In this document: positions 12,438 through 62,732 of the stretch, in pieces
How the letters are laid out: each line of letters opens with the position of its first letter
Numbering within the stretch: position 1 is the stretch's first letter
Assembly: GCA_947034885.2 (NCBI GenBank)
Contig: OX344750.2
Coordinates: forward strand, 46,475,821-46,539,820
Source of the DNA: Thuidium tamariscinum
Taxonomy: Eukaryota; Streptophyta; Bryopsida; Hypnales; Thuidiaceae
Reading direction: 5' to 3'
Length of the DNA: 64,000 nt
The notes under the pieces: model-generated
The model's database searches: none
Told to the model about the DNA's origin: nothing
Seen by the model: only the letters and a program-made list of their open reading frames with translations
Position numbers and translations under genes: made by a program

Positions 12438-13124
12438 CTACGCGCCGTCACTCCACCCAGAGGGCAGCTGTTGATTGGCTAGAGCCAACCGCCGCTCCAA
12501 TTGAGCAATGTGTCGATCCATTCGCTTCGTTTCCTGCGCCAAGTCCGAGTTCCTTTGCACCAACTCGTTCTTACGTTGTTTCAGACGGGATTTCTGGTGA
12601 GCTCGATCTAACCTCAAACTGCGGCTTCGGGATCTCTCGCGGACAAGCTCACCCATTGCTCCAATTATCGCCATGGCGTCGGAGAACTCGGACTCGGGAC
12701 TTGAACCTGGTTCCCGAGGAACGAACAAGAGTGGGTTGCCTGGACGGGGTGGGACGACGTTCCCTGGACCTGCAGCTTCACTGGCGCTGCCATTGCCGTG
12801 GCTTGCCCTTGTCTTTGCCTTTGCAGTAGCATCTCCAGCACCGTGGTGAAGAGAAAGGATGTTCAAGTTTCTGCTCAAGAGCTTCCTGCAAATTGGGCAT
12901 GGCTTCAGTGAGTTCTGGAGCCACTCACTCAAGCATGTCCAGCAGAAGACGTGACCGCACGAGGTGGCCACGGGATCCGTCGGAGCATCCAAGCAGATGT
13001 GGCACTCCAGGATCGCACGTGGAGGTTCGTCATCCACAAGTATGCCGGAGGAGGCTGCGGATGGCAGAGGACAGCTTTCTCCCGTGACTACGAATTGGTT
13101 CTCTTGGGCATGACCAGTAGCCAT
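12438..13124 (-). CDS. RING-type E3 ubiquitin ligase, RMA/RNF5-like, with C-terminal coiled coil
   Basis: This single exon of 228 residues probably encodes an E3 that passes ubiquitin from an E2 to a substrate. The C3HC4 RING is complete: Cys41, Cys44, Cys56, His58, Cys61, Cys64, Cys76 and Cys79. Trp68 and the Pro after Cys76 stand at the usual E2-contact places. The sequence around the metal ligands (ECHICLDAP, SCGHVFCWTCL, KPCPICR) is closest to the RMA/RNF5/RNF185 group. RMA proteins usually end in a membrane anchor. This one instead has a charged, Arg-rich helix of coiled-coil type at about 171-219 and no hydrophobic tail, so it may be soluble. The start is the first ATG in the frame, at 13124; the frame is open upstream only through a TTG. 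GC content is well above the surrounding DNA. The RING call is firm; the subgroup and substrate are not. Confidence 0.88.
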   Translation of the reverse strand: MATGHAQENQFVVTGESCPLPSAASSGILVDDEPPRAILECHICLDAPTDPVATSCGHVFCWTCLSEWLQNSLKPCPICRKLLSRNLNILSLHHGAGDATAKAKTRASHGNGSASEAAGPGNVVPPRPGNPLLFVPREPGSSPESEFSDAMAIIGAMGELVRERSRSRSLRLDRAHQKSRLKQRKNELVQRNSDLAQETKRMDRHIAQLERRLALANQQLPSGWSDGA

Positions 13125-13489
13125 CGAAAACTCAGTCTTCAATATATAATGCTATTCAGCGCTCGCTCGGCAGTACGATTAATTTGCTACTTGCGCACTT
13201 TGCTAGATGCAAGGTGTGCAAATTACGGATCAACTCAATGCTCAATCAGCTCTGGTGGTAAATATATGAAGCGCAAATGCGAACGGCCGGATCCGCAAGT
13301 AGTAAAGATCTAGACTGAAGAAAAAGCGTACGCTACTGGAATGCAGTGCTCTTGAGGCCTCAAACCGTTCGCTCTGGGGAAGCTCTCACGATCCCTGATT
13401 GCAACCAGACTCTAAGCTTAAACCGAAGGTGTGATCTTACGAACTGAGAAGTTGTGACAGTTATGGTGCGAGTGCCCTGCCTAACACCA

Positions 13490-52092: not shown

Positions 52093-55000
52093 ATGTCCAT
52101 AAACTGGATTTTGTTTCTTTGCATCCTTCTCGGACCACACTTCGTAACAGCGATCATTCAGGTTGATTTTCCTCGACCGGAAGGTGCGATTCGAAGTGCT
52201 GGGAGACGCTCAGGGAGGAGCAGATTTCGAGGTGAGTCTCTTAAGTGATTGCATTGAACTTCCTTTTTAACACTCGTGAATATATTCGTTAAAATGGGCT
52301 TGCTTCAAAGCACCAAAACTGTGAAATCGAAGTGCCCAGAACCTTCAGTTTCGATTCTACTGGTACAAAATACGAACACAGCATTGGCACTTTTCCAAAT
52401 GGCATCTGGGAATGATATTCTAAACCAGTCCTTGTTTGTACATCGTACTTTGCGCGCTTAGTTGCATGTCAAATCTTTGACGCTATGAAATCAACACTCC
52501 AATTGAAATAATGAAAATTGACATTCCGAGCGCAGAAAACTAGAATAAGCAAAGATCTAAGTGTTCAACTGACACACTGTGCCACTTGCATGCACCGAAA
52601 TCTACCATTTCTATATCGAACCTGATCGAGGTTCGAAAGCTGTGATTGTCTGAGTTGACTGATGCACAATCTCACTTCTCTCAGAATTGCAGGCGACACC
52701 AGCATTGGCAAGAAATCTCTCCATGGGGTTGATCCGTGACGAATTCATTCTCCTATCGTGGCGAAACAGCAGCGCATATCTCGTAGAAAATTGGGTGCGA
52801 AGCGATGAGGGACCGTGTGGCTGGCTTGGCGTGCGCTGTGGGGACTGGCGAGGGGAGAGCCGGGTCACCGCCGTCAACCTGGTTTCCGTTAACCTCACTG
52901 GACCTGTGCCGGGAAGAATTTGCGGCCTGCAGGCTCTCACTTCTCTGACATTTGCAAGCAACAACCTCACGGGGAACATCCCTCCAGAAATCGGCAACTG
53001 TTTCAATCTACAGGTATAGAATCTGCCTTGTGATTCAAAATATATAGGAACCACTATCTGATAGATGCCAAGTCTGGGGTTCAAGGCAACTGTGCCCGCA
53101 GGTACAAATTCTACCTCTTGAAACTCTGCTGATGCCAAGTCTGGTGTTGTGTCACTGGTTTATTGCCTTGGGGGAGAGAGTAATATCGTCAGTGCACATA
53201 ATTTTACTCCTTGTTGTGAGCTTTTAGAGTAACATTATCGGCTTTGGACTGAAAGGGAGGAGGCTTTGCATTCATGAAAACTTACGTGAGGAAGTTTGAG
53301 TTGGACCTTAATAAGCAAGCTCATAGTAGGAGAAATGTTGGCTCTGTAGATCAAAGAAAAGAATCATGAGAAGACTCCACATGGTCAAGAACATTAGTTG
53401 TGGGAGTTTTGGGGCGTGCAAAATTCTCCAATCAAACACATTCTATACATTGAATAGGGGTTTTAAGGGGTCCATAATAATTAATCTATATTTTTGTTGG
53501 TGTACATCAATAGTTACTAAAGTGTCTGAGGTTGTATATCATAATTCAAACATCTATCTTTTTCTAAAATAAGTCCCTTTTATATTTTGGTTCCCTTAAC
53601 ACCCATATTTAGGTTAGCATTGATATTTGTAAGCATAAGTGCTTCTTCAATAATGCAATTAAGATTTTAATAAAGCTCATCCTTATCAATACTTTAACCC
53701 TTAAACATTGAGACCGATGTTTTATGTCCAATGAATGACAAAGAATCTTTCCTTGTAGGATAGAAGTACAACCATTCATCCTTGGTATGAAGGGTGGAAA
53801 GGGGACATGTTCTATAACACTTAGACTTCCAATGAGTATATTTGGCTTATTCAAAATAGATGATGTTACTTGGTATCAAAATGCATGATTTCCATGGCCA
53901 CCAATTTGTCGTTCCAGGGTGAAGTGGCACAAGCTTCAATCCAAAAAAACACCATCTCATCCTTTTTTTTTCGTAATAAAATGCTCCAACTCCTTTTCCA
54001 ACCTGCCATCGTTGCCCTTTCAATATACTTCTTAGTTATTATGATTGGTTTCATTCAATCTCACTTACCTCTTGTTGAAATTGAACACCTCATTACAATA
54101 GAACATAATTTAACCGACACTTGTTTCCCAACCCTGTCCGGCCTGTCGTTGATTGTAGCATGCTTGCCACATATTCAACGTATGCCATGGTGAAAAAGTT
54201 GGGGTGCGATTGAAGAGGATTGAGTGTGCATTAGTTGAAATTTCTAAGCCATGTGCAAACCTGCAGGAGCTGAATTTCACCGACAACTGCCTCACAGGAA
54301 ACATTCCAGCGGAGCTCGGAAGACTCATGAATATGAAGAACTTGGACCTGTCGCGGAATCAGTTGAATGGATCTATTCCATCTGGGCTATTTGCAAACTG
54401 CAATAACGTCAACTTCTTCAACGTGTCCTCCAACAACCTCACCGGAAGTCTTCCAGCGTTACTAAGCAGTTGTCCCAACTTACGTACCGTAGACTTCGGC
54501 AACAATTCTTTCCACGGTGAGATCCCTGAAGAATTCGGCCAGCTGAATTACCTTGAGGAGCTCGTCATGGCTGACAACAATGCCATCAATGGGTCCATTC
54601 CTGACAGTCTCCTCTCGAATTGTGAATCTCTATACAAGATAGACGTCGCTTGGAACAAATTAAGAGGTCAACTGCCGCCCAAACTCGGCAATTGCAGCAA
54701 CTTGGAGATGTTGATCATGCAAGGAAATCAATTCACCGGATCGATTCCAGGAGAATTAGGCAAGCTCAAGAAATTGAAGCTTCTAGGGTTGGGAAACAAT
54801 AACCTGAGCGGACCATTGCCACAAAATTTCAGTCAGTGCAGTTCGTTAGAAGTTCTGGATGTTGGCAACAATGCGCTCACAGGGACAATTCCGACTTGGC
54901 TAGGTCAATTGCCCAACCTCCAGATTGTGACATTGCAAATCAACAAATTCGTCGGGACGATTCCAGTGGAAGTGACCACGCTCAAATCAGTGCGGTACAT

Positions 55001-57521
55001 TGATTTGAGTAACAATTCCCTCCAGGGCAACGTGTTGCCGGAGTTTGGCAACATGAGTAGCTTGCGGCTCCTCCGACTTTCGTTCAACAACTTGACGGGC
55101 ACAATTCCTACACAGCTTGGGTTTCTGTATAAACTACAGGGGTTGGATTTGTCGTCGAATTTCCTAAATGGGACTATCCCGAAAACCCTCGGCAATCTGC
55201 AGGACCTCTTGTGGTTGCAGCTCGGAAACAACTCGCTGACAGGAAAAATTCCACAGACGCTCACAAACTGCTCCAGCTTGATGTGGCTCAACTTGGCGCA
55301 CAATCGTCTGAGAGGACCAATTCCTCAACTCGGCCCCATAGGGTGGGACTCCGACCGCGTCTTTCGACAAAACCGAGAGAATCCCTGGATTTTAGATGGA
55401 GTAGGCGAGTGCTCCATATTATCGACATGGTCGCCCGAGCAATCTCAGCACTTTCAATCGTTGTTGGACGTCTCAGATCCGAAGAAATGCCACCGATGGT
55501 TACCCCTCCTCGTTCAAGGCGCCTTGAAGCTCCGAAGCAGTCGGTTACTTGGCGAGGACAAAGTGCTCAGGTATTGGCAACTGGGAAAGAACAATTTAAC
55601 CGGCCCTTTACCCGATCTCCGAAACGCTACCCTAGGGTTCCTCATCTTATCAGAAAATCACTTACAGGGTCCGATCCCTGAACATATCGGTGATCAACCG
55701 CTTTACACCTTCAATGTGTCGCACAATAAGTTGAACGGGTCGATTCCGAACTCGTTAGGGAATGCCTCATTGCTGATCACCCTGGACATGGCCTACAATG
55801 ACCTCTCCGGCGAGATTCCAACCGAGCTCGGAGACTTGTATGCACTCACTGTGTTGAACGTCTCCTATAATCCGAAACTGAGCGGCTCCATCCCAAGGAA
55901 GGGGCAGTTTACAACCTTGGGATGGGATTCCTACATGGGCGATGTCAACCTCTGCTTCGACGACTCGGACCCGAAGTACACGCAGATACTCGCGAATTTG
56001 ACGACCAATAACACGAATATACCGAAGCTGTGCAGTCAGGCGCTTGGTGGGATTTCTTCCAATGAGATAACCACAAAGAAGACCATGCAAATCCTCGAAA
56101 TAGGTCTCACCAGCAGCTTCTGCACAATTTCGGCGCTGCTGTTATTCAGCTCGCTGTACTGCGTCGTGGCGAAGTGGCGAAGGAGGATGGCTGACGTCAA
56201 GAAGGATGTGGATGTCTGGAGCCCTAGCCACACAGAATCCCACTGGCGTTCCTCAGGTGAGATCTCGTACTGCTGACTATGGCTTAATTTGTTCAAGAGC
56301 ATTTACATCTGATTTTACAACTATACTCAAGTCAATTTGAACCTAGCAGATCTAGGTGTACCATGAACTAGCATATACAAATTAACTGGTAATCACCATC
56401 TCCAACCTTAAAACCCTAGACCCTAAATGCAATGCAATTTAATGCATTGTGCTGGAAATCAACCTAGTGCACAGTTTCTACTGCCCTCTCCTGTCTGCTA
56501 CTCCGTCTCACTTGCCTGTGTGACTCCAGGGAAATCGCATGCGAATTGGTCAAGAAGCAGCTTGGTTGAGTCGTTTGGAATGCCATGCCTGAAATCCCTT
56601 ACATACGCCCACCTCGAGCAAGCCACCGCGAACTTCAGCGAGGACAACATTCTCGGAGACGGTGGGTTCGGAATCGTGTACAAGGCCAAACTCGCCAACG
56701 GTACCACCGTGGCCATCAAGAAGCTGGTTCAGAACGGTGCTCAGGGTCCCCGGGAATTTCAAGCCGAGATGGAAACCCTCGGCCAGATCCACCACAAGAA
56801 CCTCGTCTCCCTGTTGGGCTACTGCTGCTACAAGGAAGAGATGCTGCTCGTGTACGAGTATTTCGTCAACGGCAGCTTAGACGACTGGCTGTACGAGAGT
56901 GACGAGGAGGCTGCGAAACTCCTATTCCCGCTCCGAATCCGCATCGCCTTGGAGACCGCGCGAGGCCTGGAGTTTCTGCACCACGGGTGCACTCACCTCA
57001 TCATCCACCGCGACATGAAGTCCAGCAACATCCTCTTGAACGAGAGCTTCAAAGCCGTGCTCACCGATTTCGGCATGGCGAGGATCATGGACATCGACTG
57101 CACGCACGTGAGCACGGTCGTGGCGGGCACGCCGGGGTATGTTCCGCCTGAATACTCGCAGACCTGGCGGGCCACGACCAAGGGCGACGTCTACAGCTTC
57201 GGCGTCGTCATGCTGGAGCTTCTGTCCGGGAAACGCCCCACTGGACCCCATTTCAATGGCAAATGCGGCTCGAATCTCATCGAAATGGCGAGGATTCTCG
57301 TCGCGCAGGGGAATGCTACAGCCGTCTGCAATGAGAATGTGCTGCGATCGGGCAAGGTCGAAGCGATTTCGGCGTTCCTGGATCTTGCGATGCGCTGCAC
57401 CGACGCCTCGCCGTTGAATCGGCCTGCAATGCTTGAGGTTGTGCAAACCCTGGAAACCATCGCTGCACTCAACCCTGCTCTGGAGAAAGATGGTGAGCGA
57501 GCCAAGCATGAACAGGTTTGA
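52093..57521 (+). CDS. LRR receptor-like Ser/Thr kinase with island domain (PSKR/PSY1R/EMS1-like)
   Basis: This is probably a plasma-membrane receptor for a peptide or small ligand. Four exons (52093-52231, 52685-53013, 54267-56256, 56530-57521) join in phase to 1149 residues. An N-terminal signal peptide (hydrophobic to about 20) precedes a Cys pair (Cys91, Cys98) and about 19 leucine-rich repeats of the plant LTGxIP type. An island without LRR pattern at about 512-597 (PWILDGVGECSIL, WLPLLVQGA) interrupts them, with about four repeats after it, as in the BRI1/PSKR/PSY1R group. One membrane span lies at about 769-791, followed by WRRR. The kinase is intact: GDGGFG 862-867, Lys883, His979-Arg980-Asp981 (RD type), Asp999-Phe-Gly and GTPGYVPPEY. 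Kinase-domain wording is closest to EMS1. ATG 52093 is the first in frame and the frame upstream lacks one. Intron 2 (1.25 kb) carries a transposon at 53694-53923. The ligand is unknown. Confidence 0.93.
53694..53923 (+). mobile_element. Short TTAA-CCC element inside intron 2 of the receptor kinase
   Basis: It begins TTAACCCTTAAACATTGAG and ends CGTTCCAGGGTGAA (TTAA changed to TGAA), rough inverted ends. The body matches 6204-6378 closely (AATGACAAAGAATCTTTCCT, TTCCAATGAGTATATTTGGC, CAAAATGCATGATTTCCATG). It lies wholly in the intron and does not touch splice sites. Confidence 0.75.
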
Positions 57522-59790: not shown

Positions 59791-62732
59791 TCAACCGAGT
59801 GTTTGGGCGGCACAGTCTCGGAGGTACTTGAGGGCAACGTCGTAGAAGCCGGCCATGGTCTTGTACTTGGTAATGGAGTCCGGCAGAGCCTCCAAAGCTT
59901 GCACCATCTGAGTTGCTAGTAAAGGTCGCGACTCAAAGACTGTCAATGGTCTTATATATGTACGAATGGTGAAGAGAATGGCATCCGATCTGCACCCAAT
60001 CACCTCACAGCCTGTTACTGGGTGGAGAATGTGGAAAAATGAAAAAGAATTTAACAAACCTAATTAACCCACAACACCAAAACAGTGGTGGCTCCTTCAT
60101 ACTTAAGCTAAGCACACCTAAAACCACCACTATTTTCCACTGTGAAACAGTTTCTACAATAAGACTGTTGAAATTTTTATGTCTTCTCAATGGAAAATGA
60201 TATGGGGATTTCAATGCATTAAAGAATACATCATTTGAATTCCATAAGCAAAAGTTATGAAGGTTCAAAGTTTTTTTTGGTAGATGCTCTAAAATCGTTT
60301 CTTCATGAACAGCTACACACTTATTTAGGAGATGTACTTATTGTGATAACCTCATCAAGTGGCACAATTAGGCACCTTGCGCTTCTGGGTGTCCCTAACT
60401 TACTGTCACGAGGTGATCACCAAATGTGACTTCAATTGTGTTTTCTAAGCTGGAATAAAAATTGACTGTGACACAGAAGTGGCAGGACTCTTCCAAGGGT
60501 TTAGGTTCGGGAGTTTAAGTTACAGAATGAAGAAAGGGGTTACAGAGGAGGGCAGTGCACCTTGGAAGTCGCAGCAGTGTCTCCCGCTCACACCGTGTGT
60601 ACAGACGAGAGCCCACGTCCCCAGCGAGGTCAGTGACGTCGAAGGGGTTCCGGATATTGCCTTGCAAGGCGGCATAGATGTCCTCCTAATCAGAGAGAAG
60701 CAAAGAATGTGAGCCCGCATCACCAAAAACTAGATCAATCTTCCATAAGAATCCAACAAAACCGCATTAAATGATTTGAAACTTCTTGAAACACCGGGTT
60801 AAGACAACAGTTTCACCAGGAAAAATGCTTCAAGAAACATACATCTCTTATTCTTTACGATGCATTCAGTGATAACGTCCAAAATTTCATTCAACCACCG
60901 TTAGAACCACACGTTTCACTGCATACACTTTCTCTTACCTGTCTAAAGAGCTAGTCACACGAGAAATTCCTGCAATTCTATAATCAACGATTCCGTGAAT
61001 CCACAACTTTGTAATCAATGATCAAAGAGTTCACAGTCAAGAAAGAAAGCAATTTTTTACAATGTGAACCAAAGATTCACGAAGTTGGTGTGCAATTAGT
61101 GCGCAGAGAAGGGGAAGGTGCAGTCGATGGCAGGTCAACCGTACCTCATTCAAAGGTTGAAACAGAGTGGGATCGTCGGCGATAGCCCAATTGGCACGCC
61201 ACACAGGCTTGTCCACTCTCAAGCGGCCCATAAAGGTCTCCACAGCGGATCCAATCACCTCCGCATACAAGGGCACGGGCAGGTGAATGTCCCGCATGTC
61301 CATCCCCATCTTCTCCAGCAACTGCCACCGTTGGGGAAACAACACCGCACCCGAGACGAGTCTCAATTTGCCGTCCACTTTCATCATTACACATACATCT
61401 TCCTGCACATTCATCACCCCCACCATGACGTAGCTTCAGAATTCAAAGGGACACTCATTCCGCATACTTCACATGAAGAAAGGATTCAATTTGCGTCCAC
61501 CTTTACGCGTATACGGAATATATGCGTCCAACAGTCCAACTCCATACGTTAGTAGGAATGTGATTTTTGCAAGTTGAATAGAGCTTGCAGGAGAGATTCC
61601 TTTGGGTAGAAGAGCTCAATTTGTGGAGATCAAGTTCCATCAGAATGAATAAATTGCTTGTGCATAGAGGGAGGTTGCAGATCGACCACTATTGAGGGAC
61701 AGTATTCAAGCCCATTTTTATTCAAAGTTCAGTAGCCATGAACATTTATACAAGTCATGCTAAGGCTACTTGCAACTTGAAGGCTAATAAAACCAGTGTG
61801 AGAACAGATGAGATGCTGTTGGTAATAAAGCACAGTACAGGAGAGGAGATGGCGTTACCGTCCTCCACCTTACAGAGCCTCCGGATTTGCCTACAAGAGT
61901 GCAGAGCTGCAAGAAACGCATGAAAGCACAAACCCTAAACCGGTAAACCTAATTCACAAACTGAGAGCAATAGCTCTTTGCTACTCTGACGGCTCCAATG
62001 GAAACAGGAGACCCACCTGAATGAGACGCGACGTCACTTCGAGTGGATCAAGCGACCGATCATCGACGTTGTAGCACTCACCAGTCACGAGGTTATACAA
62101 CAGGGTGCCCTCACGACGGAACCGATCTGGGAAACGTTTTGGCAGAAACTCGACCAGCATCTCCAGCACTTCCCAGTTGGCCTCCGTCGCCTCGGGTCGG
62201 CTCACGATGACCACTTCTTTCCGGCTTTCCAAAATCTCGCGACGGAGAGCCATTTCTTCGTCGTAGAAGACGTCGATCTCAATCCAATCCTTCATGTCCA
62301 GCGGCTCTATGCCCATCGTCATCCGGTAAGGGATCTTCAGCGGCAAGTACTCGTATGTCCCTGAAACCACATGCAAATTATGCTTTGCAAACTATGCGGC
62401 TACTACCAATTGTGCACAGAGATTGTTGATCCCGAACAGTCAAGGGGTGCTACCAATTGCAGAATCCTGATATGCCCACAATTCAAATAGCACTGCAATT
62501 CAGGCTCTGTTTGAGAAAGGGCGAACCAGGCCCGAGATTGATGTCGTCTGGGGCTTCGGAAGATGGAGCAGGGGCATAGGGAGTTGTATTCACAGAAGGA
62601 CCCACCGTAGCCACGTTCATTTCCATCGACAGTTCTCGGTTGGCACCTTTGCCAATGGAGCTTTTGAAGCCGAAGGGACAAGAGCCTGCTGCTCTTACGA
62701 TGGATACTCGCCATTTCGAAATCTGTGCACAT
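59791..62732 (-). CDS. Heme-dependent oxidative N-demethylase alpha-like protein (DUF3445)
   Basis: Five exons (62699-62732, 62017-62360, 61145-61402, 60561-60685, 59791-59989) join through GT-AG introns to 960 bases, 319 residues plus stop. Family landmarks appear in order: YRMTMGIEPLDMKDWIEID (about 23-41), LIQEDVCVMM (about 124-133), GAVLFPQRWQLLEKMG (about 144-159), IHLPVPLY (166-173), PVWRANWAIADDPTLF (about 192-207), RCERETLLRLPRSDAILFTI (about 243-262) and RTYIRPL. Bacterial members are the heme subunit that oxidatively removes N-methyl groups from small amines. The substrate of eukaryotic members is not known to me. Length fits a single-domain member, and no signal or transit peptide is evident. 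ATG 62732 is the first after an in-frame stop; ATG 62714 is an alternative. The short first exon rests on a strong GTAAGA donor and matching phase, so it is the least certain part. Confidence 0.85.

Follow-up and report, generated by a model that had tools for sequence, protein, structure and literature searches.

The locus raises the question of whether a moss chromosome carries a working gene of the DUF3445 family, and of which kind of family member such a gene would encode. The earlier note had read the sequence as a complete, spliced gene for a heme-dependent N-demethylase-like protein in a plant genomic context.

Gene structure and chromosomal setting

In the window (the whole stretch of DNA analysed, 64,000 nucleotides), the gene is encoded on the minus strand, with its start at 62732 or 62626 and its end at 59791 (window coordinates). 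The exons and the neighbouring gene are as follows.

62699..62732, minus strand: exon 1 in the model of the earlier note; ATG at 62732, donor ATC/GTAAGA; gives a 319-residue product; outside homology
62527..62626, minus strand: alternative exon 1; ATG at 62626, donor CTG/GTTCGC; gives a 341-residue product; outside bacterial homology
62017..62360, minus strand: exon 2; acceptor TTTCAG, donor CAG/GTGGGT; first part of the PF11927 domain
61145..61402, minus strand: exon 3; contains His188 and Arg217-x-Asn219-Trp220
60561..60685, minus strand: exon 4; contains Arg265 and Glu267; insert of ~10 residues at its start
59791..59989, minus strand: exon 5; C-terminal part of the domain, stop codon at 59791-59793
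54159..57518, plus strand: neighbouring LRR receptor kinase; two open stretches, with Pfam and PDB matches

Exons 2–5 are spliced via GT-AG introns into a single open frame that covers a near-full PF11927 domain, which bears out the complete spliced gene of the earlier note over these exons. The five-exon model with its 319-residue product was also reproduced exactly, but its exon 1 has no homology, and five other start/donor pairs tie with it. Because six pairs, including the ATG 62732 and ATG 62626 versions, are equal in a simple donor match, and because homology in the alignment with bacterial relatives begins only at the start of exon 2, exon 1 and the exact product length are provisional. 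The 341-residue product (exon 1 at 62626-62527) served as the query for searches. Exon joints 2/3 and 4/5 interrupt motifs that are continuous in the aligned bacterial relatives. At the exon 3/4 joint, an insert of ~10 residues relative to the aligned bacterial relatives occupies the start of exon 4 (window 60685-60650).

The 341-residue product matches PF11927, HODM_asu-like (DUF3445), with 254.3 bits (E 1.7e-75; cut-off 25) over positions 1–271 of the 273 in the profile, confirming the family originally assigned. The LRR receptor kinase, which is BRI1-like (Pfam; best PDB match 4oh4, E 1.9e-82), lies 2.3 kb from the gene. The assembly comprises 363 Mb, in 11 chromosome-size contigs of 17.5–54.2 Mb plus eight small ones, with the window on contig C2. 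The nearby kinase and the character of the assembly support a location on a plant chromosome, in agreement with the plant context recognised earlier. Elsewhere in the window, a reading frame for a RING-finger protein (Pfam) lies on the minus strand at 12441-13151.

Two branches of the family and the position of the plant protein

PF11927 divides into two deep branches, a dimethylamine-monooxygenase (Dmm) type and a solo type. The only solved relative found for the plant protein is HODM (5LTE; E 9e-29, 104 bits, residues 59–333). HODM was not among the tree rows, and its assignment as Dmm-type follows from its scores, which are far higher against the Dmm-type proteins L027 and L030 (561 and 504 bits, respectively) than against the solo protein L086 (113 bits). 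Dmm-type proteins are ~27% identical to the plant protein. A further protein, L058, was considered as a solo type and rejected, as the tree places it as Dmm-type.

The two branches differ in their gene neighbourhoods, for which 28 loci were searched with DmmA, reductase, and GcvT-like queries. With queries taken from L027–L029, which are themselves three of the ten Dmm-type loci, DmmA and the reductase were each detected at 10/10 Dmm-type loci, and GcvT at 8/10. None of the three was detected at the solo loci (0/16 distinct places, from 18 loci, with L032 equal to L066 and L031 to L068), where the searched flanks were mostly 4–6 kb but extended for just ~1 kb to one side of L032 and 2.5 kb to one side of L073. 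The same three genes were absent from the ~1.5 kb flanks of 27 further loci, one of which is Indioceanicola again and another of which (L101) is poorly delimited. In a Pfam analysis of 20 mechanically chosen ORFs next to nine solo genes, no family recurred at more than two of the loci, and there was no shared partner: short-chain dehydrogenases were present at two, whereas enoyl-CoA hydratase, GMC oxidoreductase, thiolase, AcrB, and others were each seen once; one ORF was without any Pfam match. A single family name covers two different things: an enzyme branch with dedicated partner genes, and stand-alone genes of the plant and of many bacteria. Both DUF3445 branches coexist in one cell in four bacteria, namely G054 (L077/L081), G126 (L075/L080), G318 (L070/L083), and G334 (L071/L082), each with one solo and one Dmm-type gene.

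Conservation was counted over 21 solo and 11 Dmm-type rows, with 11 short or divergent solo rows left out. At 26 positions the residue is at least 90% conserved in both branches, and the plant protein has 24 of these; the exceptions are S165 and E269, so that the earlier statement that all conserved blocks are present holds for most core positions but not for these two. His188 is the sole invariant histidine among the compared rows. At the 13 positions that separate the branches, the plant protein has the solo residue at eight, neither residue at five, and the Dmm residue at none. Every tree also places it with the solo proteins at the main split (support 100/100 with 44 rows, 100/97 with 59 rows, and 100/100 with 56 rows). 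By sequence, it can be assigned firmly to the solo type.

Relatives are unevenly distributed among bacteria. Matches to either branch were found in 69/398 genomes of the phylum of G001, 47/385 of the class of G001, 1/198 of the phylum of G002, and 22/82 of the family of G909. We infer that the last of these is Azospirillaceae, because it includes a genome (G996) with a protein identical to that of Indioceanicola. Five genomes of this family encode proteins 43–47% identical to the plant protein (258–278 bits), and the remaining 17 matching members score at most 183 bits. The five are the alphaproteobacterial proteins L086 and L096–L099, the nearest sampled relatives; L086 and the plant protein are 46% identical across 297 residues. 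Three relatives came from a genome scan, one of them from Binatia (L032) at 43%. In a plasmid collection, 148 records had a match; among the 40 matches listed, the best was from Indioceanicola profundi (36.4%, 183 bits), and the other 39 were at 25.9–28.5% (72–115 bits). No relative was found in the viral contigs and phages scanned, so these give no sign of a viral or phage origin.

The exact position of the plant protein within the solo branch is less certain. The earlier note had proposed a tree as the means of separating old descent from transfer; the trees built here comprise only bacterial rows and the plant protein. From 71 protein rows, the omission of 12 divergent, short, or near-copy rows gave the 59-row tree, and the further omission of L101, L026 (identical to L106), and L043 (a long branch) gave the 56-row tree. 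In the 44-row tree, it is the plant protein that lies outside the 32 bacterial solo rows (91/91). With 59 rows it joins the five rows of the G909 family (87/99) and is nested inside them (81/81), and with 56 rows it joins them at 86/55. Holding all bacterial solo rows together in the 56-row tree costs 0.44 log units, so that a plant branch outside all of them is not rejected (p-AU 0.48), and the branch of the plant protein is long. The trees therefore settle the subfamily; the link to the alphaproteobacterial rows is not firmly supported, and with the exact position not firm, neither is the origin, whether by descent or by transfer. In a rather improbable history, the moss lineage would have acquired a solo heme-PAS gene from an Azospirillaceae-like soil alphaproteobacterium, added introns to it, and retained a single working copy; plants would then possess a class of non-P450 heme enzyme that functions in the absence of the bacterial partner subunits. 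Gene transfer to mosses would not by itself be new, given the 273 candidates already published for Physcomitrium patens (PMC11228847).

Decayed copies and the state of the window copy

Searching the genome with PF11927 yielded seven matching stretches, three of them belonging to this gene and four lying at two other loci, on contigs C3 and C9. Across the aligned DNA, which includes introns, both copies are 83–86% identical to the window copy. In the C3 copy, three stops interrupt the frame and an acceptor is lost; the stretch of this copy that matches alternative exon 1 (62527-62626) is still open. The C9 copy contains a single stop and has likewise lost an acceptor, and deletions have taken away exon 1 and part of exon 3. 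The window has the family consensus at two sites at which it differs from both copies, and the C3 and C9 copies therefore probably have a common stem. They also have in common ~3 kb of 3' flank (L008:6757-9899 and L009:6474-9605; ~81% identity) that is missing from the window; a mobile-element origin was considered for this reason, and the flank could either be such an element or stem from a segmental duplication. The two copies would be dead products of DNA-level duplication, and the window copy the intact survivor.

Selection was estimated over 270 codons that align in all three copies. On the window branch there are 15–16 private replacement changes and 7–8 silent ones (two scripts, differing by one), corresponding to 2.6% of replacement sites and 3.6% of silent sites, against 3.0% for introns (dN/dS ~0.7). 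As the replacement rate is close to the intron rate on this short branch, recent purifying selection on the window copy is weakly supported. These rates would suit a gene that is a recent casualty, with little or no expression, drifting in the same way as the two dead copies. The pattern of changes argues otherwise: from exon 2 onward the frame is open and the splice sites are intact, and when 15 private replacements are placed on the family alignment, three are at sites with at least 80% conservation among solo proteins. In two of the three, the residue is that of the family, and the remaining one affects a site where the family residue is missing from the copies as well. Of the replacements in the dead copies, 10/55 and 14/60 lie at such sites, and five and six of the 26 core positions are deleted or different from the window. 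Recent loss of function appears improbable; the gene can be regarded as a real plant member of a known family, belonging to the solo branch and probably functional.

Proposed function and comparison with known systems

The reading that we favour, and consider reasonably probable, is that the window contains a nuclear plant gene for a solo-type HODM-alpha/DUF3445 protein, which would act as a heme PAS-like oxygenase or oxidase served by a general reductase, and that this gene is a surviving intact copy. Alignment to 5LTE pairs His188 with His194, Arg217 with Arg224, and Glu267 with Glu266. The plant protein would fold as a heme-binding PAS-like domain in which His188 probably serves as the proximal heme ligand, with Arg217 and Glu267 placed in the oxygen/substrate pocket; a structure predicted for L032, a bacterial solo protein, together with two relatives had a mean pLDDT of 45, too poor to use. 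Electrons would come from a general cell reductase rather than from DmmA/DmmB, and the substrate would be small, possibly N-methylated, and oxidised. For HODM, a 2016 Nature paper reportedly found that R224 and E266 matter for catalysis and that the enzyme uses heme, FMN, 2Fe-2S, and tetrahydrofolate. HODM is also counted among the heme-B PAS proteins (5LTE residues 155–290; PMC8694187). From these points and the residue alignment, we consider heme binding by the plant protein likely, and the prospects for some oxidative chemistry evenly balanced.

Amine N-demethylation, as proposed in the earlier note, is a weaker proposition than it looks. A true dimethylamine-type heme N-demethylase would release formaldehyde from methylated amines, and the plant protein belongs to the same Pfam family and retains the invariant His, Arg, and Glu. 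HODM, however, is in the other branch (504–561 bits against Dmm-type proteins, 104 against the plant protein), the branch with DmmA and reductase partners, whereas the plant protein clusters with solo proteins and has no Dmm residue at the branch-separating positions. DmmA (PF22289) had no match in the plant genome, in a search that lacks a positive control (14 controls gave none either). We know of no activity for the solo branch, activity being known to us for the Dmm-type branch only, and consider N-demethylation by the plant protein plausible but rather unlikely. Alternatively, the protein might be a heme-based gas or redox sensor with a PAS-like fold, as in FixL or DosP, with which HODM is grouped among heme-B PAS proteins (in the same passage of PMC8694187); the lack of the Dmm reductase partner at the searched solo loci would be consistent with this. 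Yet the polar Arg217 and Glu267 are among the positions conserved in both branches, and Pfam identifies no output domain in the plant protein; a sensory role appears quite improbable. If a single-gene heme-PAS oxidase exists, as the favoured reading would have it, plants would possess an oxidative route that relies on neither P450s nor flavin oxidases.

DUF3445 appears in scattered contexts in the literature. The passages found in the searched literature describe no moss gene. In the parts of the sources concerned, the domain is tabulated as present in sea anemones and absent in corals (PMC6214176), appears by name in a figure legend from a survey of fungi (PMC10406608), and is encoded by a soil-derived duf3445 gene that raised the salt tolerance of Escherichia coli (PMC5809485). 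The demethylase name itself, in the 'haem' spelling, occurs in work on a poplar fungus. Its reported occurrence in 30 soybean lipoxygenases (PMC12709120), as given in the passage concerned, looks like an annotation slip.

Among known systems, fungal DUF3445 proteins, such as An08g07010 of Aspergillus niger, have the same domain name and a eukaryotic host; one A. niger member is listed as mitochondrial in the passage concerned (PMC6320622). HODM of Pseudomonas mendocina (5LTE, 5LTH, 5LTI) belongs to the same Pfam family as the plant protein, which keeps its conserved His, Arg, and Glu positions, but HODM is of the more distant Dmm type, with DmmA and reductase partner genes. The closest counterparts are the solo DUF3445 proteins of Alphaproteobacteria (43–47% identity) and Binatia (43%), which belong to the same branch and are encoded by stand-alone genes. 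Unlike the plant gene, these bacterial genes are unspliced and encode a shorter N-terminus, and those aligned do not have the insert of ~10 residues at the exon 3/4 joint.
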